From positions 23,271 through 87,270 of the IMG/VR virus record IMGVR_UViG_3300017991_004328: a DNA stretch of 64,000 nucleotides, one strand, 5' to 3'. The notes beneath the pieces are model-generated. The model was not told the DNA's origin and made no database searches. It was given only the letters and a program-made list of their open reading frames with translations. Every line of letters begins with the position of its first letter. Within the stretch, counting starts at the first letter, position 1. The translations under genes and the position numbers were made by a program. Below, piece by piece: positions 29,882-62,926 of the stretch. Source of the stretch: a virus.

Positions 29882-30603
29882 TTTTTACTAAGCTCCTGGA
29901 GCTTGTTGTACAACGGTAAGAGGTTTTCAGGATAGCGCATTGGCTTAGACCGTTTTAGTTTTACGTCAGGAAATTTTCGATCAACATCGGCAATAACGGC
30001 ATCAACCACTTTTTCGATTCCCGCCTTCGTCAGTATCTCGTCAAAGGAGATAAACTTCCAAGGGCGTGTACTGTCGGCATAGTGGTTTAAGATGTTTAGG
30101 TACATGTCTTCCCACACACCAAACAAGTAAGAGGCGTCGTGTTTGTAGTTTGCTAGGTACTTAGCTTTTCTTATCTCCTGCCGCATACTAGAAACCGTAA
30201 TTCCAGGGTTTCGAAAGACGACCAAAACAACGGTGTTGGAGGGAAGATAGGCGTCCCAGGTAGGAAATGTGTACGAAAGCCGGGGGTCCTTCAAACAAAA
30301 CGGTTTGGGTCTTGGTTGCAGGTACTTTCTAATCAGCACCCGCTGTTGATAAGTCGAGTACAGCGGCGTACCTGGAGCTAATCTTTTTAACCACCAATGC
30401 CCCCTCGGTACCTGTCTTTGCGTTGTTTGCTTCAGTATCCCCTCATTGATCTCGTGGTTGACCGTAGAATCCTCGAAGAAGCCTTTCGGATTAGCAGGGC
30501 TCGGCGGAATAAGATTGTCGCCGTGCCAATGCGTTTTGTTCATAAGCCCCGCCAGTAGGCTGCTTCCACTTCTACCGGACCCGAGAACCACGACGTTTTT
30601 CAT
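29878..30603 (-). CDS. Sulfotransferase family protein
   Basis: 241 residues. PAPS loop VLGSGRSGSSLLAGLMN (about 5-21), NPKGFFED, and the 3-prime-phosphate segment VFRNPGITVSSMRQEIRK with CLKDPRLS. The order fits the Sulfotransfer_3 group. Start overlaps the upstream fucosyltransferase gene by four bases. Three such genes in a row are rare in phages and point to a sulfated glycan. Confidence 0.72.
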   Translation of the reverse strand: MKNVVVLGSGRSGSSLLAGLMNKTHWHGDNLIPPSPANPKGFFEDSTVNHEINEGILKQTTQRQVPRGHWWLKRLAPGTPLYSTYQQRVLIRKYLQPRPKPFCLKDPRLSYTFPTWDAYLPSNTVVLVVFRNPGITVSSMRQEIRKAKYLANYKHDASYLFGVWEDMYLNILNHYADSTRPWKFISFDEILTKAGIEKVVDAVIADVDRKFPDVKLKRSKPMRYPENLLPLYNKLQELSKK

Positions 30604-31502
30604 TTTGAGAAAACCTTTTTGAAGCTAGAAATTATTGTTTGCGGGTGCGTCCACCGCGTATGTTGGTTGTTGGGCAACCACGGTTGTGCAAGCATTTTCA
30701 AATAAGCCTCGTCGTTGCTGTCCAAAAAAGCTACCTGATCTAGCAGTGCCCTCAGTACTGACGAGTATCCGCTAATGCCCTTGTGGTAGGGGTGAACAAA
30801 ACTATCTCCGTTGAAGTCTCTGCACACCTCAGGATTACCCCAATAAATAGGAATCGCATTAGCTAGCATCGCATGGTAGATCTTCTCGGTTGTGTAACCG
30901 GGGTAAGCACTGTTCTCAAAGGAGATGACAAACTTGTACGGTTTGAGGTAGTCTATTTTTTCCTGAAAAAAGTTTGGACTGCTGTGCCTGCTGCTGTGCG
31001 GGTCTTTGTACCCACCGATCGGTTTTGCATTGTTCCTGCAGTTACCCGGCGAATCGACTCGCTTGTACTTGTTCAAAACATCGAACATTTGATTTCGAAT
31101 TGTAATGTTGTGGGCGTAGACGAATGCACAAAACTTAGTTTTGCTAGCTAGGATTTTTTCGGGGTCGTAATCCTTGGGTTTGATTAGGTCTTGTCCTGCA
31201 CCATTCTTGACGTAGTTCGGCACCCGAAAGTAATGCGGCTTTTGAATCTCATCTTCGTAGTCAGTGCCCATGCACCAATCACAATTTTTTGTGTCCGGCC
31301 TTACGTTCTCGTTGTTGAAAAATATCCTGGTGTAATTTGTTCTTCCTTTGATCCCCTGCCCAGACAAGACATGTGTTGGGTTAGCCCGATCGTGAATAAA
31401 CTCGAAGTGATCGAAGAGGTATGTCATTTTTCGGAAGAACCTGTTGGCGGTAAGTTGCTTGCTCCACATATTGCGAACGTCGGTGCGGACTCTTGTTTTC
31501 AT
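30600..31502 (-). CDS. GT10 fucosyltransferase-like enzyme
   Basis: 300 residues from ATG 31502. GT10 alpha-1,3/4-fucosyltransferases use GDP-fucose. The signature YKFVISFENS, GYTTEKIYHAMLANAIPIYWG (about 210-240) is clear, with GNPEVCRDF after it; the N-terminal Rossmann half is present. Resembles the second copy at 35319-36227, so two related enzymes exist. GDP-fucose synthesis genes are not in the window. Substrate unknown. Confidence 0.82.
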   Translation of the reverse strand: MKTRVRTDVRNMWSKQLTANRFFRKMTYLFDHFEFIHDRANPTHVLSGQGIKGRTNYTRIFFNNENVRPDTKNCDWCMGTDYEDEIQKPHYFRVPNYVKNGAGQDLIKPKDYDPEKILASKTKFCAFVYAHNITIRNQMFDVLNKYKRVDSPGNCRNNAKPIGGYKDPHSSRHSSPNFFQEKIDYLKPYKFVISFENSAYPGYTTEKIYHAMLANAIPIYWGNPEVCRDFNGDSFVHPYHKGISGYSSVLRALLDQVAFLDSNDEAYLKMLAQPWLPNNQHTRWTHPQTIISSFKKVFSK

Positions 31503-32346
31503 GTCTTTTTCTTTCGTACGCACGCTCAACTGGATCGAGTGCTTTTTCGATCGGGTCTTGCGAAATCGCTTGTGAGAACAGACCATGCGATCGCAGCCAC
31601 TCCCGGAACCTGCCCATTTCCAGTGGCTTTGACGCGGTCCATCCGATTGGCCACCCCATCATCCACTCGCGCAAAGCGGGGTAGACGCCACCAGTCAGTG
31701 ACTTCACACCTCCCTTGTTGCTGCCGTAGAGACTTGCTGTTGGTGTTGGCAATTTGTTCAGCACCGTAGCCAAACCATTGCCCGACCTGGAGGACGCCCC
31801 TTTCTTGTTGTAGTCTCCGCATACTGTCAAGGTTGGCAGCATTTCCAATCCACTCACTGGACACGGCAACGATCCACATTCGTCTTCGCTCATGGTTCGC
31901 ACCGATGTCCCCAGCTCCCAATACCCCGACCCGTCCCACATACCCCATGCTGATAAATCTCTCGACGATTGTGGCCAACCCCTTGGTACGTAGGTGCGGA
32001 CTGTTTTCCGTGAACACAAACGTAGGCCGCACTTCATCAACAATTCTGAGCATTTCGTAGACAAGCCCAGAACGTGATCCGGTAATTCCAGCACCTTGAC
32101 CCGCCGCACTGATATCCTGGCATGGGAATCCTCCGCTAATGACATCAACGTGTCCGCGCCAGGAGCGCCCGTCGAACGTGCGAACGTCGTCCCATATTGG
32201 GAATCGGGGCAAGCACCCATCTCGCTGTCTGCCGAGCAATATCTGCTGGCAGTAGGGATCAAGCTCGACAGCGCAGACGGTGCGCCATCCAAGCAAGTGT
32301 GAGGCCAGCAAGCCGCCTCCTGCCCCTGCAAATAATGCCAGCTCAT
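31381..32346 (-). CDS. Overlapping (second-frame) ORF within the cytosine methyltransferase
   Basis: 321 codons from ATG 32346 in another frame of the Dcm gene. The translation is not random: MLPTLTVCGDYNKKGASSRS, RSGNGLATVLNKLPTPTAS, PALREWMMGWPIGWTASKPL and EMGRFREWLRSHG read like a family of annotated phage proteins I have seen beside or overlapping such methyltransferases. The same DNA simultaneously encodes the complete Dcm. Either a true dual-coding gene or a widely conserved shadow of it. The last 60 codons run beyond the Dcm stop into the GT10 gene. Confidence 0.4.
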   Translation of the reverse strand: MSWHYLQGQEAACWPHTCLDGAPSALSSLIPTASRYCSADSEMGACPDSQYGTTFARSTGAPGADTLMSLAEDSHARISVRRVKVLELPDHVLGLSTKCSELLMKCGLRLCSRKTVRTYVPRGWPQSSRDLSAWGMWDGSGYWELGTSVRTMSEDECGSLPCPVSGLEMLPTLTVCGDYNKKGASSRSGNGLATVLNKLPTPTASLYGSNKGGVKSLTGGVYPALREWMMGWPIGWTASKPLEMGRFREWLRSHGLFSQAISQDPIEKALDPVERAYERKRHENKSPHRRSQYVEQATYRQQVLPKNDIPLRSLRVYSRSG

Positions 32347-35318: not shown

Positions 35319-36227
35319 CTATTTGGGTTGCAGTAGGATCTTATCAAATTGTTTTCTAATCTTTTCGGGGTCGACCCAATCGGTGTACGTGTTGTTGGGA
35401 AGCCAGGGTTGCCTAAGCTTAGCTAAGTATTTGTTAGGATCCTTGTCAACAGCCTCAACCTTATCCACCAACGCGGCAAAGCTGCCATCGAAATTAATAA
35501 AGCTCTTGGGGTTAAAATCGCGGTGAACTTGAGTGTTGCCCCAATAAATCGGAATGCAGCCAGCGAGCATGGCAAGATAAAGTTTTTCGGAGGTGTACCT
35601 GTTATCTCGTTCGTTCTCGAAGGCAATGACAAACTTGTACTGCCGGTAGAACTCCACCACCTCATCAAACTTACGGTACAGACGGCGTCTAAGGTGGTGT
35701 CTGAGGTTTTGTCGGGTTGCCCCACCCAAAGGAGCCATGTTGTTACAAACCGCCCCAGGGGCGTCTACGCGCTTGTAGCGTGACAACAGTTCAAAGAACC
35801 TCATTCGATTAGGTTCAGGGTTTGAGTAAACAAACGCGCAAAACTTAGTTTTGCTAGCTAGGATTTTTTCGGGGTTGTAGTGGGGAGGTTTGATCAAATC
35901 AGGACCGGCTCCAATCCTGGCATAGTTTGGCAACCGATAATGCCTCGGGTTGTTGTCCACGTCTTCGGGGTAGAAAAACGTAAACGAGTAGTCAGCCTGC
36001 TTGAGATTCGGACCGTGGTTCTCAACAGGAATCCAAACCTTCTTGGCTGTCTTAGGAATGTTCTTAGCCTGGTGGGGCTTAGAATAAAAAACAACTCTTG
36101 GGTTTGAAGGAACAAAATCGTAGTTGTTAGCCACGCATTTGAGCCTAGCAAACAAAATATTGGCACTTATCTCCGGACGCCACATCCAAGCTACTGCAGG
36201 CACTTCAATCATTTTAGGTTTTCCCAT
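35319..36227 (-). CDS. GT10 fucosyltransferase-like enzyme, second copy
   Basis: 302 residues from ATG 36227. As in the 30600 copy: AFENERDNRYTSEKLYLAML, CIPIYWGNTQVHRDFN, with the N-terminal half rich in Arg/Trp (VAWMWRPEISANILFAR). The two differ enough (different N-terminal halves) to act on different acceptors. Both share an identical KILASKTKFCAFVY segment, pointing to duplication. Donor GDP-fucose is inferred. Confidence 0.8.
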   Translation of the reverse strand: MGKPKMIEVPAVAWMWRPEISANILFARLKCVANNYDFVPSNPRVVFYSKPHQAKNIPKTAKKVWIPVENHGPNLKQADYSFTFFYPEDVDNNPRHYRLPNYARIGAGPDLIKPPHYNPEKILASKTKFCAFVYSNPEPNRMRFFELLSRYKRVDAPGAVCNNMAPLGGATRQNLRHHLRRRLYRKFDEVVEFYRQYKFVIAFENERDNRYTSEKLYLAMLAGCIPIYWGNTQVHRDFNPKSFINFDGSFAALVDKVEAVDKDPNKYLAKLRQPWLPNNTYTDWVDPEKIRKQFDKILLQPK

Positions 36228-36409
36228 AGCCTTGGTTCTCCTTCCTCGCAACCGTAGCCTAAGGGACACCAACAACCCACCATCCCTAATAGGTGGGTAC
36301 AGCAACCCTGCCCCTCTTCTATTCCAGTTGGGCGACAGAACTCTTTGTGCTCACAATCCTTGCAGAGTTTTATGTAGACGCACTCAGCACAAAGAATTCG
36401 CTTAGCCAT
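36209..36409 (-). CDS. Small cysteine-rich protein
   Basis: 66 residues with eleven cysteines (CAECVYIKLCKDCEHKEFC, CCTHLL, GCWCPLGYGC). Probably binds zinc or iron-sulfur; no family identified. It overlaps both neighbours and is coupled within the small gene chain. Confidence 0.5.
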   Translation of the reverse strand: MAKRILCAECVYIKLCKDCEHKEFCRPTGIEEGQGCCTHLLGMVGCWCPLGYGCEEGEPRLWENLK

Positions 36410-44781: not shown

Positions 44782-45136
44782 TTTCTAACCCCTTCTGGTT
44801 CGGCATTACCAAACCGCTACAGTAAGCTTTCCAGCGTTGCACAGAGTCTTGGTATTGAGTCCACAGCTCGGGTCCTTGTTCGCCGACCTTGCAAATAATC
44901 TCCAAAGCTGTGGGCAAGACCCTGATTTGTTCTTGTGCGGACTTATCCGAGTGCAACGGTTGGATCAACAACGCTGCTCCTCCGTCTCTGGGAACCTCAG
45001 CGTAGAGCTTAGGGTACACCACCCGCAGGGGTTGGATATTTCCGGCTAAGAAATTGTCATAGGGTTTTTGATAAATCGTTCCGAGCATTCTTTGGTTCGG
45101 CAAATAAATCATGACAAACAGATCTGCGTGTTTCAT
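44729..45136 (-). CDS. Hypothetical protein
   Basis: 135 residues from ATG 45136, which shares bases with the stop of the GT4 gene (TAATG) and follows GAGGAAAAG. Alpha/beta domain with LLIQPLHSDKSAQEQIRVLP. No family recognised; the three genes 45136-44034 are probably a small operon unit within the glycan region. Confidence 0.5.
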   Translation of the reverse strand: MKHADLFVMIYLPNQRMLGTIYQKPYDNFLAGNIQPLRVVYPKLYAEVPRDGGAALLIQPLHSDKSAQEQIRVLPTALEIICKVGEQGPELWTQYQDSVQRWKAYCSGLVMPNQKGLEIGSAQNPLQAKHFPRNR

Positions 45137-46143
45137 TACTTTTCCTCCAACACGGTGTCGATGGCTTTTTGCCACAAAGCGTAGTTCTTATTTAGGTCGT
45201 ATTTTTCTTCGACTAACTTAGTTGCATTTTTGAGAACTTCTTTTCTCTCTTGTTCGTTGTTCAGCACGTACCGAACCAGCTCGTACCAATCCTTGCGTTG
45301 CTTAGCAAGGTATCCGTCAACACCGTGGGTGATTGTTTGTTGGTAAGGTCCAAAGTCACTGGCAATCGTTACGATGCCCTGTGCTGTGTATTCTAGAAAT
45401 TTCAAGTTCGACTTAGACAGATTGAATTTACAAGGCACCAACGGAGCTAAACCCACCGTTGCGTCTGTTTGGCTAAGTACGACGTGGAAGCCTTTGAACT
45501 CCACAGGCGGTACCTGGTAGATCCCTTTCATTGGTGCGTAGAAGACCTTCGGAAAACAATCCCCGTCTTTTTTCAGTTGCTGCATAGCAGGCTCGATAAG
45601 CGCTAGGTCTTTTTTGTGCGTGTGCGATCCTTGCCAAAGCACAACGGGTTTGACCGAGTTGTCAGGCTTAGGTGTGAACAACTCAAACGGTACCGAGTTA
45701 GGAAGCACAAAGACGTTGTCGTTGTACTGCCGATAAACCTCTGCTAAGTCCTCGGTGGTAACAAACACCGCGTCAACTAAGTTACAGAAGCGTTTGACGT
45801 AGTCTTGCACCTGAGGATTTCCCAGTTCTTTTTTTGCAGGGTTCCAATCAGGGATCGAGAACAGATCATCGTCTATCTCGTACACCAATTTTGTTCTGGC
45901 TTTCCCAGGCCTGTTCTTAGTTTTTATCCTTTGTGCAGTCTCGTAGACCTTAGGCATGTACTGACGTTGGAAGATTGCTAGATCAAACCCTCCAACTTGT
46001 CGTTCGTCCATAACCCCTGTAACCGAGATCATGTACTCCTTCGAGTGTTTTGCTAATGTTGAAAAGGGAAGGTGAATTCTGTAGAACCAACAAGCTCCAG
46101 AGTCACCTCGATAAGCGATTATTTCTGTAGGTTGTTTTTCCAT
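45136..46143 (-). CDS. Glycosyltransferase family 4-like
   Basis: 335 residues, GT-B type: GDSGACWFYRIHLPFSTLAK start, YEIDDDLFSIPDW, VVLWQGSHTHKKDLALIEPA, and a donor region SNLKFLEYTAQGIVTIASD. More divergent than the other two GT4-like genes. First gene of the leftward operon facing the 1.4-kb non-coding region; ribosome site is weak (GAAAGATGT). Confidence 0.75.
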   Translation of the reverse strand: MEKQPTEIIAYRGDSGACWFYRIHLPFSTLAKHSKEYMISVTGVMDERQVGGFDLAIFQRQYMPKVYETAQRIKTKNRPGKARTKLVYEIDDDLFSIPDWNPAKKELGNPQVQDYVKRFCNLVDAVFVTTEDLAEVYRQYNDNVFVLPNSVPFELFTPKPDNSVKPVVLWQGSHTHKKDLALIEPAMQQLKKDGDCFPKVFYAPMKGIYQVPPVEFKGFHVVLSQTDATVGLAPLVPCKFNLSKSNLKFLEYTAQGIVTIASDFGPYQQTITHGVDGYLAKQRKDWYELVRYVLNNEQERKEVLKNATKLVEEKYDLNKNYALWQKAIDTVLEEK

Positions 46144-47546
46144 ACATCTTTCATACCCTGAAAAGAATAAATCAAAAAGAGGGTTCTTATGATCTTCCTA
46201 AGGTCCGTAGGGTACCGAGACCGCGATAGCGGTGGAGGGACTAAAGACGGACCTTAGGGCGTCCGTACCCGTACGGTGGTTGGGTGATACAAGCTCCCGC
46301 TAAGGGAGCGAAGGATCTGCCCAAACAGCGTACGGCTTACTTTACCTAAAAAGTAAAATAATTTTTGTATATATTAGGTTTTTTAGTTTACTCGAAATGT
46401 ACCAGGCGGCCCACCGTAACCGCTGCCTTAGGCAGCCTGCCGTGGTTTGCCGCATGAAAGTTTTTTTAGTTTCCGAAAACTAAAAAATGGTCTACTCGCT
46501 AGACGGATCTATCAGCAAAACATGAAACATGTAATGTACAATCCGCCATGTGCGGCGTTCGGTAAATTACATGTAGTATGCAACAAGTAATACTCGTTAG
46601 CGTCGCAAGGTGTTGCGCCGCATGTCACTTCGCATTACTTGTTGGTATGGGAGGCAATGTATTCGCCTTCGGCTCATAAGCAACATTGCCTCACCATATT
46701 CGCCTTCGGCTCATGTTCGTTGTTCGTCGTTGTTTGTCGACGTAGGCCGCTGGGGCGGCAGGGAACCCGCGCGAGGCTACCCAGAAATCCGATTTTTTGT
46801 CAAGGAGCATTTCGGTTTAATTTTTTTGTTTTGTTTTCGATGATTTCAATAGTGTACGATCTACAATTATAAAGTGATCTTTTCCAGTTTCTTGCTTTTT
46901 TGTGGAATTGGTACGTTCCTAGTAGTAAAATATGCCCGTTTACTGGACTCGAGTGTCAGGTTATTTTTTTCTACATGTTTGAAATCGTTCGATTCACGAA
47001 AAGTTTGCGAGGTGAAGCGTTTTTACAAATTTTACTTTACCTTTTTCTACATGCCTGTAAATAAACAAGAAAAAAAAAGTCGAAACTACTATACACTTTT
47101 CTGAAAACCAGGTAGCGCATTTTCTAAGTTTTATAAACTTATTGTTTATATACAATCGGTTATAGAAAAAAACCTTAGTTTTAGTCAAATTATTACTTTT
47201 CTGAAACTAAGAAAGTCCCCTGCAAAATTTGTGCATTTTTTTCCGCGCGGTTTCTGTGGCTACGAGAAGGCCTTTTTTTGTTTTGGGTGAAGCCATATGG
47301 CGACAGGTGATTTGATAGAAGACCGAAACCAAACAACAATTTTTTATACAATAGATATTTTACAAAAGTTATTTTTTGGAAAAAATAGGTCGGGATGCAT
47401 ATTTTCGAGTTACTTGCAACAAAAAAAACGATCAAAAGGCAAAAAAGTTGATGGGCTTGGAGGGGGTCGAAAACCCTCTCTTTGGACCCCCAACAAAGGC
47501 TGTTTTTAGCCTGGTACGATGCCTCTAAGTTTGGTACTTATAAGAA
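46144..47546. other. 1.4-kb non-coding region, candidate origin or control locus
   Basis: No gene with usable translation signals lies here. Left part (46197-46714) is a run of hairpins. Right part (46800-47546) is AT-rich with many T and A runs (for example TTTATAAACTTATTGTTTATATAC) and a GC hairpin near 47457-47492 (GGGGGTC/GACCCCC). It separates the leftward glycan operon from the rightward replication block, the layout expected for an origin or early control region. No known iterons or DnaA-box pattern was recognised. Confidence 0.45.
46197..46714. repeat. Array of long perfect hairpins
   Basis: Successive inverted repeats: 46197-46208/46247-46258 (12 bp, with inner ACCGC/GCGGT), CCGTAC/GTACGG (46263-46276), GCTCCC/GGGAGC (46293-46309), GCTGCC/GGCAGC (46422-46436), a T/A-rich stem 46463-46486, CATGTAAT/ATTACATG (46528-46573), CAACAAGTAAT/ATTACTTGTTG (46581-46644) and GAGGCAATGT/ACATTGCCTC (46651-46692). 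TATTCGCCTTCGGCTCAT occurs twice (46660 and 46697). Each stem is different but similarly built, with a GC-rich tip. Confidence 0.7.
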
Positions 47547-47966
47547 ATGAAACCCATATACCTGTTTGTCAAAAGCGGTCGAAAAGTAGGCAAGCTAGTT
47601 GTAACACCGACCCACCTTGTTGTTATGGTAACCGACCACAAGTTCTTTGTTCCCCCTCTACAGACAGAGCACAGGTTCGAGTTCACTAGAAGGACACGCT
47701 TACGCAGCAGCCTTCTAAAACACGCAGGCAAAGCCTTGTTCAAGCCAAGTACCGGAACCTTTCTTGCTGAGATCAAGTTACCGAACAAACCTAAGTTTAG
47801 GGTTGCGTCTAAGCGTCGCTTGCCTGACTGGATTTGGAAGAGGGGTTTGCCAGAACCTAAAAAAAGGAAGCGTAAGTACAAACCGAAGTACTACTCACTA
47901 GGCAGGACGAGAAACCAATCCAAGAACTGTGGGCGTAGGCAGTGTGCGGTTCTCAACAGTTACTAA
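47547..47966 (+). CDS. Basic hypothetical protein
   Basis: 139 residues from ATG 47547; a weak ribosome site. N-terminus is beta-rich (KPIYLFVKSGRKVGKLVV), C-terminus very basic (PEPKKRKRKYKPKYYS). Nucleic-acid binding is plausible. First gene right of the non-coding region; overlaps the convergent gene at 47963 by four bases. Confidence 0.55.
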   Translation: MKPIYLFVKSGRKVGKLVVTPTHLVVMVTDHKFFVPPLQTEHRFEFTRRTRLRSSLLKHAGKALFKPSTGTFLAEIKLPNKPKFRVASKRRLPDWIWKRGLPEPKKRKRKYKPKYYSLGRTRNQSKNCGRRQCAVLNSY

Positions 47967-48262
47967 TCTCTAATACCTTTTATCCTTGCCTGTACGCGCT
48001 TTAGCCAAGCTTGTCCAGACCCCGAACCCAACCACTGCACGAAAGAGCACACGGCGACCCTGCGAGGGTCTGAGGCAGGTACAAGCTCAACCTTGGTGTT
48101 TGGCCCAGCGCATAACTGATCAATTAGGTCTGGTGTCTGGGGAAGGTTGAGCATTTGAAATTCGTGGGCAAAAACCCATTCCACTCTATTCTCGGGTTGC
48201 TCCAACCTTTCAGAGTAAGTGCCTACGTACTTTTGAATAAGCTTAGGTCGGCGTCGGTCCAT
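47963..48262 (-). CDS. Hypothetical protein
   Basis: 99 residues starting at ATG 48262; convergent with the preceding gene. Contains VEWVFAHEFQMLNLPQTPDL. No family recognised. Confidence 0.5.
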   Translation of the reverse strand: MDRRRPKLIQKYVGTYSERLEQPENRVEWVFAHEFQMLNLPQTPDLIDQLCAGPNTKVELVPASDPRRVAVCSFVQWLGSGSGQAWLKRVQARIKGIRD

Positions 48263-48275
48263 TCCCCGTCCCCTG

Positions 48276-49097
48276 CTAGTGCATTTGGTACTTGCCTGCA
48301 GATTTCGTTATTTCCCATTCCTTCCTTAGCTTAACCAAAGCTTGAGCCAAACTTTGGTCCACCTTATCAGGATCTCTATCGGGAAAGGCCTTGATAATCT
48401 TTTTGACCAGGTAATCCTTCGATCTTGCAACCCCGGATAAAAGAGCCTTCTCGACAACAGTCTGGACGGTTTTTCTATTTTTAGGTGTCTTAGCGACCTT
48501 TTTTCTCGTTACGTGTCGCTTAGTTTTCTTAGTTGTTTTGGCTTTCTTTTTGGGCTTAGCCACAAGCTTGATGGTTTCTTTCGGTTCTTCCTTACCCACG
48601 TGTTCGTTGTTGAGTTCCTTGCAAACGAACTCAAACAAATTGTTGTTGTGTTTTTTTATCTTCTCTTCGTAGCTCAACACCTCCTTTTCCTTTTCAGTCA
48701 AGGGTAGCTTTGCTTTCTTCTTCTTTTTTGCCATCTCAAGCCTAATCTGCAGTCGATTGGCCATCGAATACCGCGTCGAATAATGCGTCGAGCAGTACCC
48801 CTTACTGATTGATTTTTTGTCGCACTCATTAGCGACACATTGCTTCGGATAGGTAGCTTTTAGTGGAACCACAAAATAACTGTCCCGGTCATCTTTGATC
48901 TTTAGCGCTTCTTTGATCAACTCCCAAGCTTTCTCGCTAGGAACCGATCTTCTGCTTTCCCAAGAATACAGGGACATCTTGGTATACCCAATCTCCTGGG
49001 CCAGAGCGGCTACGCTAAAGCCTACGCTCTGCCTGGTTTTCTTCAAGCTTTTCAGTCTTTTCTTCTTCTGTGGAAAACTCTGTGGACTAGTTGTCAT
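48276..49097 (-). CDS. Xre-type HTH protein with lysine-rich tail
   Basis: 273 residues. An N-terminal Cro/C1-type HTH (SVAALAQEIGYTKMSLYSWESRRSVP) is followed by a Cys/His segment (CVANECDKKSISKGYCSTHY), a long Lys/Thr/Arg-rich linker (about 185-220, histone-H1-like) and a C-terminal helical domain. Probably a DNA-binding regulator or nucleoid protein. Divergent from the sigma factor gene, 147 bases apart from its start, so it may control that promoter. Confidence 0.65.
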   Translation of the reverse strand: MTTSPQSFPQKKKRLKSLKKTRQSVGFSVAALAQEIGYTKMSLYSWESRRSVPSEKAWELIKEALKIKDDRDSYFVVPLKATYPKQCVANECDKKSISKGYCSTHYSTRYSMANRLQIRLEMAKKKKKAKLPLTEKEKEVLSYEEKIKKHNNNLFEFVCKELNNEHVGKEEPKETIKLVAKPKKKAKTTKKTKRHVTRKKVAKTPKNRKTVQTVVEKALLSGVARSKDYLVKKIIKAFPDRDPDKVDQSLAQALVKLRKEWEITKSAGKYQMH

Positions 49098-49244
49098 TTA
49101 CTTACCTCCAACTAAGTTGTTGTGATCCGATCCATACCTTGTTTTTTGCAAACAATCCTTGACTACTACCAATTCTCCATGCTAGTCTCTTTCCCACTTT
49201 TGGGCAAGGTTTGTTTACAAAAAATTCATTTTCTAGGGGGCAGC

Positions 49245-50006
49245 ATGCTTAGCATCAAAGAGCAGCAAAAGCTGGTGGAGGAGTGCTCGTACCTCGCAAC
49301 AACCATCGCGGCAAAGTATTTCAAACGTAAAAAGGGGAATAAGCAAGAGGATTTTCTAGACCTTCAGCAGGAGGGGTTTGTGGGATTGTGCCACGCTGCA
49401 AAGCTCTACAATCCGAAGAACAAGGCTGGAGCTAAGTTTTCGACCTACGCGCAATACTGGGTCCACAAGTACGTCAGAAAGATGGCCATGAAGTCGATGA
49501 GCCCTTTGAAAATTTCCGAAGAGGCAATGCACAAGAGAAAGCGACTAAACGAGATCGCAGACCGTACTTACACAAAAAGCGGTGTCTACCTCGATTCAGA
49601 AATGCCTGAAATGAATGATAACTTATTGAAGCCCATTAGTTTGGATTTTCAGTACGAAAAATCTAAAGCTTCTTACGTCGTCAACGATTGTATCGAGCCC
49701 AGCCAAAGCAACTCCTTAACAAGTTACTTCAATTGCTTTGGCGAAAGTGGGTTGATTAATCGTGTCGAGTACACGAAGATAAGAGAAGTAATGCCTCAGC
49801 TCAACCCCAAAGAGCACCGGGTTCTAAACCATTACCTCAACGGTGTTGAAAAAACCGAGATTGCACGACGGTGCAAGGTTACCAAACAACGGGTATACTT
49901 CTTGTACAACTCCGCTGTGGAGCATTTGCAGGCAATAATAGGTAGCCAACAAAATGGATCTCAAATCGGCAATTCGCGCAAACAAACAGCTAACCAAACG
50001 ATTTGA
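49245..50006 (+). CDS. Phage-encoded sigma-70 family factor
   Basis: 253 residues from ATG 49245 after AGGGGG. Region 2: FLDLQQEGFVGLCHAAKLYN and FSTYAQYWVHKYVRKMAM, which fit promoter melting; region 4: QLNPKEHRVLNHYLNGVEKTEIARRCKVTKQRVY with a clear helix-turn-helix. Region 3 is short. It would direct host RNA polymerase to phage promoters. The C-terminal tail (about 18 residues) is low complexity and overlaps the next gene. Confidence 0.82.
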   Translation: MLSIKEQQKLVEECSYLATTIAAKYFKRKKGNKQEDFLDLQQEGFVGLCHAAKLYNPKNKAGAKFSTYAQYWVHKYVRKMAMKSMSPLKISEEAMHKRKRLNEIADRTYTKSGVYLDSEMPEMNDNLLKPISLDFQYEKSKASYVVNDCIEPSQSNSLTSYFNCFGESGLINRVEYTKIREVMPQLNPKEHRVLNHYLNGVEKTEIARRCKVTKQRVYFLYNSAVEHLQAIIGSQQNGSQIGNSRKQTANQTI

Positions 50007-50706
50007 ACGCTACCTAAAGGCCCACCCCGACGTACTAAAAAAAGTAAGCAAAAGGGTATCTACTCGCATCCGCAGACAAGCCTGCTTAGGATACGCCCCC
50101 AAAAGCTACGACCTACAAGACTGGGCAAAACAAAGAAACATCCAACAAAGTACCTTAGCTGCGTTGGGGCTGGTTACGGAAAACGGAAACTCATTTTTCA
50201 GAAATCGAATTATCATCCCGATCTTTTATGCGGGTTGGGTAATTGGGTTTGGAGGTAGGGCAGTAGACGAATCGGACATAAAATACATCAATTCCAAAAA
50301 GTCTGATCTGTTTGACAAAAAATCCGTACTATTCAACTTACAAAATGCACGAGAATCAATTATTAGAACAAAAGCTGCAGTAATTGTAGAAGGGTATTTT
50401 GACTGCTTGAAGATGCATGAGATTGGTATCACTAATTGTGTTGCCACGTGCGGAACTTCCTTCACGGCTGAACATGCTTCGATGCTTCAAAGGTATACCA
50501 ACAAGGTCCTTATTGCGACGGACGGAGACGGTGCGGGAAGAAAGGCTGCCAAAAAGATTGCTCGGTCGCTTGCTAATCTTGGAATACCTTCCGCCAAACT
50601 CCGTTTACCTGGGTTAGATCCCGAAGAATTTGTCAACGAGTACGGTCCTACAAAGATGCGCAAGTTAATAAAAGCTACTTGGAGACGAGATGGAAATTAC
50701 CGCTGA
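49954..50706 (+). CDS. DnaG-type primase catalytic core (TOPRIM), no zinc finger
   Basis: 250 residues. Corresponds to the Toprim_N and TOPRIM parts of bacterial primase: FFRNRIIIPIFYAGWVIGFGGRA, IVEGYFDCLKMHE (catalytic Glu146) and ATDGDGAGRKAAKK (Asp190, Asp192). The N-terminal CHC2 zinc-binding domain is missing; a separate CHC2 protein is encoded at 62923-63396. The usual C-terminal helicase-interaction domain is also absent. Start overlaps the sigma gene by 53 bases. Confidence 0.8.
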   Translation: MDLKSAIRANKQLTKRFERYLKAHPDVLKKVSKRVSTRIRRQACLGYAPKSYDLQDWAKQRNIQQSTLAALGLVTENGNSFFRNRIIIPIFYAGWVIGFGGRAVDESDIKYINSKKSDLFDKKSVLFNLQNARESIIRTKAAVIVEGYFDCLKMHEIGITNCVATCGTSFTAEHASMLQRYTNKVLIATDGDGAGRKAAKKIARSLANLGIPSAKLRLPGLDPEEFVNEYGPTKMRKLIKATWRRDGNYR

Positions 50707-51257: not shown

Positions 51258-51285
51258 TCTCACCGAATGCTAAGCTGTGCTTTCG

Positions 51286-52815
51286 ATGAAGACTAAGACC
51301 AAAAGCTTCGTTTGCGAGTTGCCTCTGGACCCCACAAGAGAGGATGAACGCAGACTGTTTGTTTGCTTCGAGGTCGCACGGCAAATCTACAACGCGTGTT
51401 TGGGTGAAGGACTGAGACGACTCCGGCTAATGCGTGAAAGCCGTGACTGGCAGCGGGCTCGGGCTCTGCCAAAAGGTCATGAAAGAAGCACATTGTTTCG
51501 ATCTTGTACGATCCGCTTTGGATTCCGAGAGTATGATCTGCACGCATACGCCAAGCAGTTCAATCGTGGCTGGCTCGGCCAGCATATCGACATCAACACA
51601 ATCCAGAAGCTGGCAACCAGGGCGTATTGTTCTCTCAAGGAACACATGTTTGGCAAGCGAGGTCGACCTCGCTTCAAAGGCTATCGGGGCCTGCAGTCTG
51701 TGGAGGGCAAGACCAACGCGTCGGGAATTCGTTGGCGAGATGGTGTGGTTCATTGGAAAGGCTTGTCATTGCAAGCGTTGCTGGACCCGCAGGACAAAGC
51801 TGGTTGGCAGGCAGAAGCTCTGAGCCGCAGAACTAAGTACTGCCGCATTGTGCGGCGCCAGGTCCGAGGAAAGACCCGCTGGTACGTTCAACTGGTGCAA
51901 GTTGGACTGCCGCCCCCTAAGCAACACGAGCGCACCAAGGCAGTCGTTGGTTTGGATGTCGGACCTAGCACCATCGCTGTGGTGGGCGAGCAAAGAGCCG
52001 TTCTGGAGCGTTTCTGTCCGTCGGTCGAGCAGCCCTGGCGCCAAACGCGTCGGATTCAAAGAGCCATGGACCGCTCGCGGCGGTCCACCAACCCGGACAA
52101 CTACAACCCAGACGGCACCGTCAAACCCGGCCGCAAAAGATGGAATCGTTCCGAGCGGTACAAGAGGCTCGCAGCCCAGCGGGCAGAGAACGAACGCCGA
52201 TTGGCCGCAGAGCGCAAGCGAGCCCATGGGGAACTTTCCAACCGCATTCTGGCGCTGGGCACGACGGTCAGAACTGAGAAGTTGAGCTACCGATCCTTCC
52301 AGAAGAACTTCGGCAGAAGCGTCAAGGTCCGTGGCCCTGGGATGCTTATCGACATGCTGCGCCGCAAGGCTGAGAGTGCTGGCGGCCAGCTCGAGGAGTT
52401 CCCAACGCAACCGACGAAGCTGTCTCAAGTTTGCCATGGGTGTGGCCAGACCAAGAAGAAGCCCTTGTCGCTTCGGACCCACGAATGCGAATGCGGAGTG
52501 GGTCCGGTGCAGAGGGACTTGTACAGTGCGTTCCTGGCTTGCTTTGTAAGCCAGGCCAAGCTCAACGCCCGGCAGGCCCAAGAGGCCTACCCGGCTGCGG
52601 AACCGCTGCTGCGACGGGCGGCGTTGAGCTTCAATCAATCTGCGAGCAGAAGGGCTTCGGCTGCTTCTCGCGTCAACACAGACGTTAGAGCGGATCGTCC
52701 GTCGAAGGGGGTCAGGAAGGCATCGAGGCCGCAGACGTCGTACCGGCGTGGTTCCCATGTCCGGGAGGGCTGCGGAGAGATGCGTTCTGTTTCCTCCAGA
52801 ACCCCCGGGCTTTAG
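51286..52815 (+). CDS. tnpB: TnpB, RNA-guided nuclease, second type
   Basis: 509 residues from ATG 51286 (a GTG at 51277 is possible). RuvC acids: Asp in GLDVGPSTIAVV, Glu in VRTEKLSYRSF, Asp in VGPVQRDLYSAFL. Zinc ribbon CHGCGQTKKK / HECECG. A C-terminal extension of about 80 Arg/Ser-rich residues and longer spacing make it a different subgroup from the TnpB at 13602. Catalytic residues are intact. Presumed guide RNA from its 3-prime end and the hairpins at 52802-52877. Confidence 0.88.
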   Translation: MKTKTKSFVCELPLDPTREDERRLFVCFEVARQIYNACLGEGLRRLRLMRESRDWQRARALPKGHERSTLFRSCTIRFGFREYDLHAYAKQFNRGWLGQHIDINTIQKLATRAYCSLKEHMFGKRGRPRFKGYRGLQSVEGKTNASGIRWRDGVVHWKGLSLQALLDPQDKAGWQAEALSRRTKYCRIVRRQVRGKTRWYVQLVQVGLPPPKQHERTKAVVGLDVGPSTIAVVGEQRAVLERFCPSVEQPWRQTRRIQRAMDRSRRSTNPDNYNPDGTVKPGRKRWNRSERYKRLAAQRAENERRLAAERKRAHGELSNRILALGTTVRTEKLSYRSFQKNFGRSVKVRGPGMLIDMLRRKAESAGGQLEEFPTQPTKLSQVCHGCGQTKKKPLSLRTHECECGVGPVQRDLYSAFLACFVSQAKLNARQAQEAYPAAEPLLRRAALSFNQSASRRASAASRVNTDVRADRPSKGVRKASRPQTSYRRGSHVREGCGEMRSVSSRTPGL

Positions 52816-56075: not shown

Positions 56076-57305
56076 ATGCACTCAGTTTCGGTTGTTGGGT
56101 TAGGGTACGTAGGATTGCCTTTGGCTCTGGCGTTTGAGGCTGTAGGGTTGCGCGTTTGGGGGATTGATCACGATCTTGAAAAAGTACAAATGCTCAACCG
56201 CAAAAAATCTTACCTAACCACAGTCCACGACAACCGATTGCTTTTCGCTTCTGGGTTTCATGCCACAACTAAAAAAGCAGTAATTGCTGAATCCGCTGCG
56301 GTTATTGTTTGCGTTCCAACACCAATCGACGAAAACAACGAACCTAACCTTAGTTACCTTAAAGACACTTGCCAACAAATTGCCGAACACCTAAACGGAC
56401 AGCTCGTGGTAATCGAATCAACAAGCTATCCCGGAACAACCGAAGAGATCGTCAAACCGATCTTAGACTCTTCAGGAAAGCATTACAGCTTAGCTTACTC
56501 TCCCGAAAGAGAAGACCCCGGCAACCCTCATTACAACGTGTTCAACACGCCTAAGATCGTAGGAGCGGACGATAAGCTAAGCTTGGACCAGGCTATCGAA
56601 CTTTACGAAAAGGTGTGCAAAACCGTAGTTCCGGTAAGTTCCTGCAAAGTAGCGGAGATGGCCAAGTGCTTGGAAAACGTCTACAGAATGGTCAACATTA
56701 GCCTGGTCAACGAACTAAAGGTTTTTTGTGACTGCGAGGGGATAGACATTTGGGAAGTAATCGAAGCCGCTAAGTCAAAGCCCTTCGGCTTTCAAGCCTT
56801 CTATCCAGGCCCCGGTACTGGAGGGCACTGCCTGCTACCTGATTCGATGTACCTCGCAGCCAGGGCCAAGCAAATCGGTGCTAAGGTCAATTTCATCGAG
56901 CTGGCGGGACAAGTCAACAAGTCCATGACATGGTTTGTATTTAAAAAAGCTCGTCAGGCCCTCAAGGAAGTTTTGGACAAGGACCTAAAAGACTCAAAGG
57001 TTTTGGTAATTGGACTGGCATACAAACCCAATATCAACGATACCCGCGAAAGTCCCGCATTCCCGCTTATCAAGGAACTAAAGTTTTTCGGGGCCGACGT
57101 GTGTTATCATGATCCATTTGTCCCCGTGTTCCCAAAAACCCGCAATTATGAGTTCGACCTTGCTTCGATCGACATTTGTGAGGACCACGGTATTGACTGC
57201 GCGATTTTAGTGACGGATCACGACAATCTAAACTACTTAGAGATTTCTAAGTTTCCTGTCATTGTAGACACCCGCAACCGTATTCCTGCTGCCTTCAAAG
57301 CCTAA
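56076..57305 (+). CDS. Nucleotide-sugar dehydrogenase (UDP-Glc/GDP-Man family)
   Basis: 409 residues. NAD-binding VVGLGYVGLPLALAF at the N-terminus, VCVPTPIDENNEP, YSPEREDPGN, and catalytic Cys252 in GPGTGGHCLLPDSMYL. Oxidises a UDP- or GDP-sugar to the uronate. It is 10 kb from the glycan operon but probably provides a uronic acid donor for it or for the host surface. Own promoter and leader upstream. Confidence 0.82.
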   Translation: MHSVSVVGLGYVGLPLALAFEAVGLRVWGIDHDLEKVQMLNRKKSYLTTVHDNRLLFASGFHATTKKAVIAESAAVIVCVPTPIDENNEPNLSYLKDTCQQIAEHLNGQLVVIESTSYPGTTEEIVKPILDSSGKHYSLAYSPEREDPGNPHYNVFNTPKIVGADDKLSLDQAIELYEKVCKTVVPVSSCKVAEMAKCLENVYRMVNISLVNELKVFCDCEGIDIWEVIEAAKSKPFGFQAFYPGPGTGGHCLLPDSMYLAARAKQIGAKVNFIELAGQVNKSMTWFVFKKARQALKEVLDKDLKDSKVLVIGLAYKPNINDTRESPAFPLIKELKFFGADVCYHDPFVPVFPKTRNYEFDLASIDICEDHGIDCAILVTDHDNLNYLEISKFPVIVDTRNRIPAAFKA

Positions 57306-57325: not shown

Positions 57326-57766
57326 ATGCTAGTTCATCCACACCTGCACAAGGCGATGGAAAGCCTAAGAACCTTTGCGGATAAGAAGCACCTCGACTTT
57401 GGCTGTATGGACTTAGGAACGGCGTACTCACACCTACGGGTCATGCGGTACAACACAATCGCAGAGATGATTCGAGAAGACCCCGATCTTTTCAGAAAGT
57501 GTGTGCGAGACGGAACCAAACCAATCAAAACGCTTCGCAACACATTGTCTTCAACAAAGACAGACTTCATAGTGAACACTCTGCGAAAGAGACGGTGTAC
57601 AAAGACAGAGCTTGCTGAACTTTTGCACGAAGAGTTCAACGATGGCCGCACCATCCGAGACCTTATTGGGTACGTCAATGAACGTTTCGTTGCGCTAAAA
57701 AAACGTGGAGTAAAAGTCATCAAAGTTGGTGCTAAGGGACGCAAAGGAGTTTACGAAATCAAATGA
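57326..57766 (+). CDS. Hypothetical protein, winged-helix-like
   Basis: 146 residues after GGAGAGG. Middle section KRRCTKTELAELLHEEFNDGRTIRDLIGYVNERFVALKKRG looks like a winged helix. Possibly a DNA-binding regulator; it is coupled to the MT-A70 gene by a four-base overlap. Confidence 0.5.
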   Translation: MLVHPHLHKAMESLRTFADKKHLDFGCMDLGTAYSHLRVMRYNTIAEMIREDPDLFRKCVRDGTKPIKTLRNTLSSTKTDFIVNTLRKRRCTKTELAELLHEEFNDGRTIRDLIGYVNERFVALKKRGVKVIKVGAKGRKGVYEIK

Positions 57767-58326
57767 AAGGATTCGATCTAATCTACGTTGATCCTCCCTG
57801 GTCATACAAGGACACGTGCTCTGCGGGTAAACGAGGCGCTGTTCACAAGTACCCAGTGATGAGTTTAGAAAACATTATTAGCCTTCCTATTTGGAAGCTG
57901 GCATCAGACAACTGTCTTTGTGCTACTTGGGGGACGTGGCCTCAACTACCAATCGTTTGCCAAGCACTAGAGGGCTGGGGGTTTACGTACAAAAGCGTTG
58001 GGTTCGTCTGGGTCAAGACAACCAAAAACAAAAAGCTTCATTGGGGGATGGGCAACTGGACACGCGCAAATAGTGAGTTTGTTTTGTTAGGCGTGCGAGG
58101 AAAGCCAAAACGTGTGGACAAGGCAATTCATTCGATTGTGCATTACCCAATTTCGAAAACACATTCTCGAAAACCTAATGTAATACGAAAAAAGCTGGCT
58201 AGGCTTGTAGGCAACCCTGAACGCAAAATCGAATTGTTTGCCACAGATAAGGTTCCTGGTTGGCGGTGTACAGGGTTTGAAGTAGATGGTCGTGATATTC
58301 GAGATGTCTTGAAAAGGATAAAGTGA
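57763..58326 (+). CDS. MT-A70-type N6-adenine methyltransferase
   Basis: 187 residues. DPPWSYKDTCS near the N-terminus (catalytic DPPW, 10-13) with YPVMSLENIISLPIW, SEFVLLGVRGKP and HSRKPNVIRKKL, as in phage MT-A70 proteins. Methylates adenine in DNA (or RNA); target unknown. Start overlaps the previous stop. Third or fourth DNA methyltransferase of the window, and the only one in the replication block. Confidence 0.82.
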   Translation: MKGFDLIYVDPPWSYKDTCSAGKRGAVHKYPVMSLENIISLPIWKLASDNCLCATWGTWPQLPIVCQALEGWGFTYKSVGFVWVKTTKNKKLHWGMGNWTRANSEFVLLGVRGKPKRVDKAIHSIVHYPISKTHSRKPNVIRKKLARLVGNPERKIELFATDKVPGWRCTGFEVDGRDIRDVLKRIK

Positions 58327-60334: not shown

Positions 60335-60863
60335 GCCGGTCTGCAAACGAAGAACCTTGCTTTTTACCGACGACCCTATCGAACGAAAAATTATTGAAAT
60401 GGCTTCTACCTTATCTAGTCAAAACGACCGGCTAAAAAAACAGATCGAAAAATCTGGCGCTTGGGCAGCCCAGAAGCATGTTGACCAGTGGAGACCTTTT
60501 GACTTCCTACATTACTTCAATGACCTTTATGAACAACGCTACCGTCGCCAATACCACCTAAAAGGAAGTTTAGTTCGTGCCTATGATCAAATCGAAAAAT
60601 TTATGCGGGAAGTAGACGCAGATAACAAGACGTTTAAGAGTTTTATCGATATAGCTTTTGCCAGGCACTTCAACGATTTCGCTCCTCCAACACTTCAACA
60701 CATTATCAACAAAACAATCTTTTCGAAAGTGATGAAAAAGCACAAACCAAGTAAAAGACTGACAGACTTAGACCACCGAATCGCTAGAGAATCTTTTATC
60801 GAAGACGAGCACGACCCCTACGCTTACTTGGACGAAATGATTGCTAATGAGTGCCTACACTGA
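60324..60863 (+). CDS. Hypothetical protein, replication operon
   Basis: 179 residues after GGAGG. Helical throughout (IIEMASTLSSQNDRLKKQIE, DFLHYFNDLYEQRYRRQYH). Its place directly before the helicase loader suggests a replication-initiation or loader cofactor, inferred only. Overlaps neighbours by 11 and 17 bases. Confidence 0.5.
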   Translation: MGNKPVCKRRTLLFTDDPIERKIIEMASTLSSQNDRLKKQIEKSGAWAAQKHVDQWRPFDFLHYFNDLYEQRYRRQYHLKGSLVRAYDQIEKFMREVDADNKTFKSFIDIAFARHFNDFAPPTLQHIINKTIFSKVMKKHKPSKRLTDLDHRIARESFIEDEHDPYAYLDEMIANECLH

Positions 60864-61563
60864 CCTTGAGAAAATAAAAAAAAATTGCAAGCTCTGTGCT
60901 GGTATTGGAATGGTTCTCGTTGACGACGAACTACAATACTGCAAGTGCGTTCAACGGATTCGTCAAAAAGCTAAGCTTATTGACGCAAACATTCCAAAGC
61001 AGTACTGGGATTTTCACATCGCGGATATTCACCAAAGCTTCAAAGAAGACAACAAAAAAGAATTCCATGCAGTACAAGCGTACATCAAACGCATAAGGGC
61101 AAACATCCGCAACGGTAAGGGGCTTTGGTTGTGGAGCCCTCCCGGTATGGGTAAAAGCACTTGTATTGCAGACATTCTCAGATCTGCGATCGCTACTGAG
61201 CACAAAGCTTACTTCTTGAAAGCAGCAAAGGTTGTTGAGCTTAGGATGAAGGCTCTTCGATCTGCTGAGGCTTCTGGCTTAGTAGACTACTTGTTATCTA
61301 AGGTAGACATTATTGCGGTTGAGGAAATAGAAAAAGTTTACCTAGCTTCGGAAGACACGCTACCAAACACGTTATTTTTTGATTTTCTTTCTGACTTATA
61401 CGATTCGAAAAGAGCGCTGCTAGTTACTTCAAACTGTTCCCCCGCTAAGGTAATTGAAAAGTTCCCTACGTATATTGCAGACAGGTTGCGTTTGTTGAAA
61501 GTTCTACGATTTACGGGGAAGTTTTCGGGGCGTAAACTGGCGCAGGCAAATGCTCGAACTTAG
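60847..61563 (+). CDS. DnaC-like helicase loader (AAA+)
   Basis: 238 residues from ATG 60847. Walker A WSPPGMGKSTCIAD (about 95-108), Walker B IIAVEEIEKVY, sensor TSNCSP, as in DnaC/IstB loaders. N-terminal Cys pair CKLCAGIG and CKC could bind zinc. Probably loads the DnaB-like helicase encoded next (overlap of 14 bases). Loader and helicase side by side strengthen both calls. Confidence 0.8.
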   Translation: MSAYTDLEKIKKNCKLCAGIGMVLVDDELQYCKCVQRIRQKAKLIDANIPKQYWDFHIADIHQSFKEDNKKEFHAVQAYIKRIRANIRNGKGLWLWSPPGMGKSTCIADILRSAIATEHKAYFLKAAKVVELRMKALRSAEASGLVDYLLSKVDIIAVEEIEKVYLASEDTLPNTLFFDFLSDLYDSKRALLVTSNCSPAKVIEKFPTYIADRLRLLKVLRFTGKFSGRKLAQANART

Positions 61564-62926
61564 ATCTGACAAGGTCGAAAAAAGATTACTGTCCTTCTAC
61601 TTTCGTAAGCCTTACTTTGCCAGGCTTGTCGATCTCGACGAGAACAAGTTTTTTACTCGTGCGAAGTACCGTACCTTAGCCCGTCTTGCCAAAAGCTACA
61701 TAAAAAAATACCAACAGCCGCCTACCAAAAAGGTTCTGTACGAATACACCAAAGACACAGAACGGCACTCAAACGTTGACGAGATCGGGTCAGCGATGTC
61801 TTTAATGGCGACCCTCCCAAAACCACGTAAGGATGAGTTTGAATACTTACTTGACCGAGGCAAAGACCTTCTTCTAACCCGCAACCTCTACGACGTAGCG
61901 GACCACATAAAAAACGCTCTTGAGTCTGACGGAGAATTAAAGGAGACCCATCGTAAGGTCCTCACGTCCCTTCTGCGAGCAGACGAGACGAGGACGGCTA
62001 ACCGTATGGGGTTTCTGCACGAGACCGCACAGGAGCGCTGGAACACGTTTGTGCGGCAGGATCACAAGGATGACATTATTCGCTTTGGCATGGACCCCCT
62101 AGACGAAGCCTTAGGAGGCATGCGAAAAACGTTCACGACTTTGATCTACTCCAAAACCGGTGGTGGTAAGACCAGGACCGCTGTCAACGTTGCGATCAAT
62201 GCGGCTAGGCAAGGCAAAAATGTTATCTATTTCTCGCTTGAGATGGCAACCGAACTTATCGGGGCTGTGTTCGACAGTCGATTAGCTTGGTTAGACTCTT
62301 CCAAAATCGTATTTTCTAAGCTAAGTCAACAAGAAAAACGAAAATACCGAATAATGCTAAAAAAGCAAGTTCAGAAAAAGCTCGGTGTTTACATTGTGGA
62401 CATTCCTTCGAACGCAACCACGTCAGATTTGTACGAGGCTGTGGAGACCTACAGGGCTGTCACAGGGCTCGAACCCGACTTGGCCATCCTCGACTACGCC
62501 AATCTGCTCGAACCGCTTAGATCGTACGCTGGCCGTTCTGAGAAGTACGACGTTCTTTTCAAAGAGCTACACGAGTTTGCCCGAGCACAGCGAGTTGCTT
62601 TGCTAACAGCTACCCAGGAGAAGCGCCAGAGCAACGACAACAAGAAGGATAAGGACCCTTACGAACCAGATATCGAAAACATCGGCCTAAGTAATTACAT
62701 GGCCGTGCACTGCGAGACGGTACTAAGGTTAGTCCAGACTGAGGAAGACAAACTCCAAAACAGTTTGTGGATTGTCGTGGACAAGAGCCGCTACAGCGCA
62801 GTGGGGACTAAGATTTCTCTAATTGCACTGTGGAGCCACTCGTACGTAGGCGATCGGTTTGTTGGAAATATTCCCGGTGTGCGCGTTGTAAAAAGGAGAA
62901 AAAAGAGTAAGAAAAAGAAAGAATGA
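61550..62926 (+). CDS. DnaB-like replicative helicase
   Basis: 458 residues. RecA-fold C-terminal half: Walker A YSKTGGGKTRTAVN (about 200-213), Walker B LAILDYANLLEP, and ATQEKRQSN. The N-terminal part is shorter than that of bacterial DnaB (about 100 residues of helical domain), and the C-terminus is very basic (VKRRKKSKKKKE). Acts with the loader and the split primase. Confidence 0.82.
   Translation: MLELRSDKVEKRLLSFYFRKPYFARLVDLDENKFFTRAKYRTLARLAKSYIKKYQQPPTKKVLYEYTKDTERHSNVDEIGSAMSLMATLPKPRKDEFEYLLDRGKDLLLTRNLYDVADHIKNALESDGELKETHRKVLTSLLRADETRTANRMGFLHETAQERWNTFVRQDHKDDIIRFGMDPLDEALGGMRKTFTTLIYSKTGGGKTRTAVNVAINAARQGKNVIYFSLEMATELIGAVFDSRLAWLDSSKIVFSKLSQQEKRKYRIMLKKQVQKKLGVYIVDIPSNATTSDLYEAVETYRAVTGLEPDLAILDYANLLEPLRSYAGRSEKYDVLFKELHEFARAQRVALLTATQEKRQSNDNKKDKDPYEPDIENIGLSNYMAVHCETVLRLVQTEEDKLQNSLWIVVDKSRYSAVGTKISLIALWSHSYVGDRFVGNIPGVRVVKRRKKSKKKKE

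Follow-up and report, generated by a model that had tools for sequence, protein, structure and literature searches.

We sought to understand what an array of long, mutually dissimilar hairpins does in a non-coding gap of a jumbo-type tailed phage, a bacterial virus. The window (the whole stretch of 64,000 nucleotides analyzed) is part of an 87-kb viral contig, G000, and a 136-kb sister contig (IMGVR_UViG_3300018080_000117, G001) is identical to it across the array region. A similarity search of positions 45000–48300 among cultured phages gave no match, our literature search returned no description of such a hairpin array, and no replication origin or control center has been described for this jumbo-type phage clade as far as the literature was searched. 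The preliminary description had proposed a replication origin, a recombination hotspot or a collection of mobile palindromic elements; of these options the origin gains most, from the location of the array at the genome's major point of gene divergence, the AT-rich tract beside it, the recurrence of position and palindrome density in five relatives, and the repeats found in three. We regard the array as the palindromic half of a DNA-level control region, and most likely as the putative main replication origin or part of it, an assignment that we hold with about even confidence.

The array occupies one end of a gap where leftward and rightward gene blocks part, and from the start of the glycosyltransferase gene (46143) to the small ORF that begins at 47547 there is no open reading frame longer than 80 aa. 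The gap and the genes that bear on its interpretation are as follows.

24502–26400, minus strand: terminase large subunit, in the leftward structural block (phrog_17415, E 3e-61)
45136–46143, minus strand: glycosyltransferase, first gene of the leftward block, adjoining the array (phrog_7162, E 4e-50)
46144–47546: non-coding gap of 1.4 kb (array plus AT-rich tract)
47547–47966, plus strand: 139-aa ORF without family, right border of the gap
48276–49097, minus strand: helix-turn-helix (HTH) regulator, reading leftward between the blocks (HTH_3, E 2e-5)
49122–50006, plus strand: phage sigma-70-like factor, start of the main rightward block (phrog_351, E 1e-27; Sigma70_r2)
49954–50706, plus strand: DnaG-type primase core (Toprim)
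60841–61563, plus strand: AAA+ ATPase resembling helicase loaders (weak matches to the AFG1, DnaA and IstB families; homologue in G002)
61550–62926, plus strand: DnaB-type replicative helicase (homologues 43–45% identical in G015 and G023)

Leftward genes to the left of the gap include those for terminase and portal, and the rightward genes from 49122 onward include those for the sigma factor, primase and helicases. GC skew flips sign at the array, yet it tracks gene strand further right; we therefore dropped it as independent evidence for an origin.

The presence of a hairpin array in non-coding DNA was borne out, over ~600 bases without genes (46197–46790). The end given in the preliminary description, 46714, was slightly short, with weak stems reaching ~46790; its count of at least eight different stems of 5–12 bp compares with 11 non-overlapping perfect stems of 6–12 bp within 46190–46800. 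The common style of GC-rich tip that it had recognized was also found, in that most of the hairpins are nested, a longer outer stem carrying a short GC-rich inner tip. In the following list, z refers to single DNA folds against each element's own shuffles.

46197–46258: nested hairpin 1, 12-bp perfect outer stem CCTAAGGTCCGT, inner tip ACCGC-GATA-GCGGT; z −5.9 (plus), −4.6 (minus)
46269–46335: nested hairpin 2, outer 16-nt arms CCGTACGGTGGTTGGG (88% complementary), inner tip GCTCCC-GCTAA-GGGAGC at 46293–46309; z −6.1 (plus), −3.6 (minus)
46337–46379: weak AT-rich stems 3, perfect arms of 7 and 6 bp; z +0.2 (46334–46384 folded)
46406–46453: nested hairpin 4, GGCGG outer arms, inner tip GCTGCC-TTA-GGCAGC at 46422–46436; z −1.5, weak
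46462–46487: hairpin 5, 11-bp A/T stem TTTTTTAGTTT-CCGA-AAACTAAAAAA; z −4.2, both strands
46490–46504: small hairpin 6, GTCTA-CTCGC-TAGAC; z −1.5
46527–46574: nested hairpin 7, outer ACATGTAATGTAC arms, GC-rich inner tip near 46544–46557; z −3.1, −3.3
46581–46644: nested hairpin 8, 11-bp perfect outer stem CAACAAGTAAT, inner tip CGCAA-GGTG-TTGCG; z −3.1, −4.8
46646–46698: nested hairpin 9, outer stem TATGG/GAGGCAATGT, direct-repeat copy 1 near its apex; z −5.6, both strands
46660–46677, minus strand: direct-repeat copy 1, reading ATGA-GCC-GAA-GGC-GAAT, a C(GAA)G mini-hairpin flanked by GA/GA
46697–46714, minus strand: direct-repeat copy 2, start-to-start spacing 37
46800–47520: AT-rich non-coding tract with T-runs and the short repeats TTTTTCTACATG, ACTTTTCTGAAA and TATACAAT, each present twice

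At least six strong hairpins beat their own shuffles on both strands (z −3.1 to −6.1 on the plus strand for the six), and three stretches did not stand out from theirs (46406–46453 and 46490–46504, both at z about −1.5, and the AT-rich 46334–46384 at z +0.2). The whole array region reached z −9.7 when only Watson–Crick pairs were counted and −6.8 when G-U pairs were allowed; folding each strand separately gave −6.0 on the plus and −10.1 on the minus strand. Hairpins were ranked by a GC-regression scan together with dinucleotide shuffles of intergenic gaps. The array is the top hairpin outlier of the window, of the 87 kb in 300-nt windows and of the 136-kb sister contig in a 200-nt scan, and of 28 intergenic gaps the one at 46144–47546 exceeds its shuffles in hairpins the most. 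The stems are equally good on either strand, and G-U pairs are scarce in them (4/98 and 6/97 pairs on the two strands, in helices of at least 6 bp); since the stems are nearly G-U-free on both strands, they give no sign of a transcribed strand.

Beside the hairpins, the AT-rich tract falls to a minimum of 23% GC per 100 nt (genome 47%), as is expected of the unwinding tract of an iteron-type origin. An iteron array was not found in the window gap, where the repeats are short and in two copies only.

Whether such a region is peculiar to this phage could be judged from its relatives. Single window proteins searched against viral contigs returned only the identical sister contig and one relative with a 47% identical terminase; the relatives used here were found via alignments of at least two relatives. 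Terminase matches at ~26–31% identity come from large phages such as Virus Rctr197k, PaBG and Vibrio phage GR7B, and closer relatives, 46–50% identical in terminase, are G002 (39 kb), G015 (91 kb), G016 (24 kb), G023 (121 kb) and G024 (59 kb). At the corresponding divergence point, all five of these distant relatives show an intergenic gap rich in palindromes and flanked by a glycosyltransferase operon and/or a phage metallopeptidase, with the terminase block running away from the gap. In G002, G015 and G016 the metallopeptidase (PF18894) and the glycosyltransferase operon point in opposite directions on either side of a gap of 388–630 bp; homologues of the glycosyltransferase at 45136–46143, which served to locate the relatives, flank the gap in these three. 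G023 has a 647-bp gap between the metallopeptidase and a 336-aa gene at the glycosyltransferase position (a putative glycosyltransferase, identified from position and sequence reading), and the G024 contig starts inside the gap, with the metallopeptidase adjoining. In the window phage the operon is inverted, the gene across the gap differs from that of the relatives, and a homologue of the operon's usual first gene lies elsewhere (L126:9176–10135); because of this inversion and the different border gene, the gaps are putative orthologues, matched by position and not by alignment.

When each gap is scored against dinucleotide shuffles of itself, the one at the divergence point takes first place among intergenic gaps in five of the six genomes (of 28, 6, 4, 21 and 11 gaps) and second of 14 in G015, where a tRNA cluster comes first. 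A 300-nt scan likewise places the most hairpin-dense windows in these gaps for the window phage, G015, G016, G002 and G024, and ranks the G023 gap only 12th of 1208. Were ranks random, the chance of such a set would be ~1 in a million, a figure that overstates the case, since z rises with gap length and the gaps compared here are some of the longest. In all six gaps the lowest GC content of any 100-nt stretch is 21–29%. Direct or iteron-like repeats occur in three of the relatives' gaps: seven 13-bp iterons of CCTTGTATAAGTC type in G002, CTTGTTAAGGCC-type repeats in G016, and CCTATAG and CCTAATATTAGG repeats in G015; reading by eye, without a repeat-finder, gave apparent CAGACA and GGAGTCATTAAA repeats in G023.

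The letters of these gaps are essentially unrelated. The window gap has no sequence similarity to those of the relatives, and the only sequence shared among gaps amounts to some short words common to G015 and G016 and a 23-base tip that G016 and G024 share with a single difference. As material for compensatory changes, the only near-identical copy of the array (in the sister contig) is 100% identical, and the relatives' gaps cannot be aligned. Place and style are thus kept and letters are not, which points to a DNA-level start site or control region rather than a fixed RNA; a fast-evolving DNA-level control region fits this pattern, which argues against one conserved structured RNA. A palindrome-rich gap kept in one place across six lineages while its letters are replaced provides a concrete site for tests, and its function may rest on the ability to form hairpins and not on sequence. 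Hairpin-dense stretches in more distant phages proved to be of another kind, consisting of stems that resemble terminators or, within a low-GC island, of TGAGGA-type repeats. The latter refers to G014, a high-GC genome with a 32% identical terminase, in which a low-GC, hairpin-rich intergenic island with repeated TGAGGA/CCTCAC words (L226:13000–13260) is possibly an analogous region.

Under the origin reading, the array would stand at the divergence of a leftward block for head and packaging functions and a rightward block for sigma factor, primase and helicase. Its inverted repeats, accompanied in some relatives by tandem direct repeats, would be extruded as cruciforms or bound by a phage protein, and the adjoining AT-rich tract would melt; the phage helicase, loader and primase would then start bidirectional replication, and divergent promoters may share the gap region. 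The rightward block does encode a primase, a helicase and a loader-like ATPase. This ATPase (60841–61563) and the HTH protein (48276–49097), the latter a possible binder of the gap region, are candidates only for the initiator.

Known iteron-type origins offer a partial precedent. Lambda ori is non-coding and joins semi-palindromic repeats to an AT-rich stretch, and its repeats diverge rapidly. In the phage satellite PLE the origin is likewise placed in non-coding DNA, where semi-palindromic iterons vary from one PLE variant to the next and correspond to the initiators of those variants; ICP1, the host phage of PLE, uses an internal origin for bidirectional replication (PMC7145576, PMC8263062). 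The window region resembles the PLE origin in its non-coding location, semi-palindromic repeats, AT-rich stretch and rapid repeat divergence (PMC7145576, PMC8263062). It differs from both the PLE origin and lambda ori in that its array is made of unlike nested hairpins and not of copies of one iteron. An unlikely variant is an initiation region set by DNA shape and not by sequence, in which ever-changing nested palindromes would be extruded into hairpins (some with GA-flanked C(GNA)G tips); a phage protein would recognize these hairpins and set off replication or early transcription, and shape recognition would leave the sequence free to drift while position and style are retained.

The same layout is open to a reading without any replication role, in which the gap is mainly a transcription control center whose divergent promoters and palindromic operators would be bound by the HTH protein and the phage sigma factor. 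The position between oppositely read blocks, the genes for an HTH regulator and a sigma factor nearby, and an AT-rich tract with short repeats (among them the paired copies of TATACAAT and TTTTTCTACATG) are all compatible with this, and palindromes and repeats are typical of operators. The hairpins are, however, long, nested and all different, unlike the repeated operators of a single regulator, and promoter-like matches are at chance level (5 found, 3.8 expected); we consider a purely transcriptional center possible but doubtful. We find it distinctly unlikely that the array acts as a structured RNA or 5′ leader of ~600 nt, which would most probably be transcribed leftward into the glycosyltransferase operon. 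Both strands fold strongly, at the z values given above, the array lies directly upstream of that operon's first gene, and several hundred non-coding, strongly folding bases in a phage recall the large ornate RNAs GOLLD, ROOL and OLE. Against an RNA stand the lack of sequence similarity to the relatives' gaps, G-U counts that give no strand preference, and the lack of any terminator-like site within 46000–49300. The earlier impression that no known RNA is involved held, the window giving no Rfam 15 match at gathering or relaxed thresholds and the relatives' gap regions no match to Rfam covariance models; unlike GOLLD, ROOL and OLE, the array has neither a covariance-model match nor a sequence or individual hairpins shared between relatives. 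A terminator role is also unlikely, because no terminator-like site was found there and the region is divergent, not convergent.

The remaining alternative, that the array is a functionless graveyard of short selfish palindromes piled up in one large non-coding space, appears improbable to us. It draws on fast hairpin turnover, on the recurrence of a 17-base tip of the array between genes of unrelated bacteria, archaea and viruses, and on the near-identical 23-base tip lodged in the otherwise unrelated G016 and G024 gaps; yet a phage genome whose genes are tightly packed has, in six lineages, retained both the gap and its surplus of palindromes at the corresponding position, and the array is not repeated elsewhere in the window phage. 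REP/BIME elements are a close comparison, being intergenic palindromes, and the 17-base tip is likewise dispersed in several unrelated genomes, whereas the array itself is a single cluster of unlike palindromes. Many same-genome copies of one palindrome, as in REP/BIME, were not found, the 136-kb sister contig giving only chance-level matches elsewhere, and no REP-associated transposase was recognized near the array. Mobile palindromic elements as first proposed thus survive for one component, the 17-base core that recurs as an intergenic hairpin tip in unrelated genomes, and not for the array, which has no other copies in the phage. The turnover of hairpins between relatives would also be compatible with the recombination hotspot suggested at first.

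The tip in question belongs to the direct repeat. The 18-base repeat noted earlier in the last hairpins, TATTCGCCTTCGGCTCAT, is exact at 46660–46677 and 46697–46714, and a search of the 87 kb gave no GA-flanked C(GNA)G tips besides its two copies. The arrangement GA-stem-C(GNA)G-stem-GA occurs at seven sites in six sequences (~420 kb), four of them in the gaps, which make up ~1% of the bases; this enrichment is suggestive only, because the motif was defined after the window repeat and the G016/G024 match had been seen. Phage N4 virion RNA polymerase uses hairpin promoters with a C(GNA)G triloop, and the mini-hairpins at the two repeat copies carry this triloop. Most hairpins of the array differ from N4 promoters in having other loops, and no gene for a giant virion RNA polymerase was seen, the largest ORF listed being 1045 aa in a contig that is probably incomplete.

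In its exact form the 17-base core was found in 113 viral contig stretches. These are mainly freshwater contigs, not kin of the window phage, in which several hairpins follow a small ORF on its downstream side as a cluster. The 17-mer ATTCGCCTTCGGCTCAT (window 46660–46676; loci L003–L115 and L243–L358) is intergenic and often a hairpin tip in unrelated genomes. It is present in at least 20 contigs of one Bacteroidales MAG, in eight of a Woesearchaeota MAG, and several times in Fibrobacter, Omnitrophica and Bacillus genomes, with many copies in several unrelated cellular genomes; in two contigs (L257 and L358) it is near-tandem. In many of the metagenomic viral contigs (L003–L115, e.g., L013:7212–7396 on the minus strand, and L030) three to four hairpins including the 17-mer lie between a small ORF and a putative proteasome-like gene, and single hairpins in these clusters are swapped for unrelated ones among relatives. 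The shared GA-C(GNA)G-GA tip, one exact form of which recurs in unrelated bacteria, archaea and viruses, poses a question of its own that merits further work.

Several other features of the window and its sister contig may be recorded. Three consecutive tRNA genes, two for tRNA-Leu and one with an unassigned anticodon, lie at 2240–2480. The window encodes two fucosyltransferase-family glycosyltransferases, a UDP-glucose/GDP-mannose dehydrogenase and an MT-A70 methyltransferase (30600–31586, 35319–36305, 56076–57305 and 57763–58326). A further strongly hairpin-dense place, of 57–64% GC, is found in the sister contig (L127:1001–1400, ~128.0–128.4 kb of G001). Two TnpB-like genes are present (13602–14867, minus strand, and 51277–52815, plus strand), the second within a locally GC-rich stretch (60%); its hairpin-dense 3′ end near 52700 could be the guide RNA of this TnpB-like gene.
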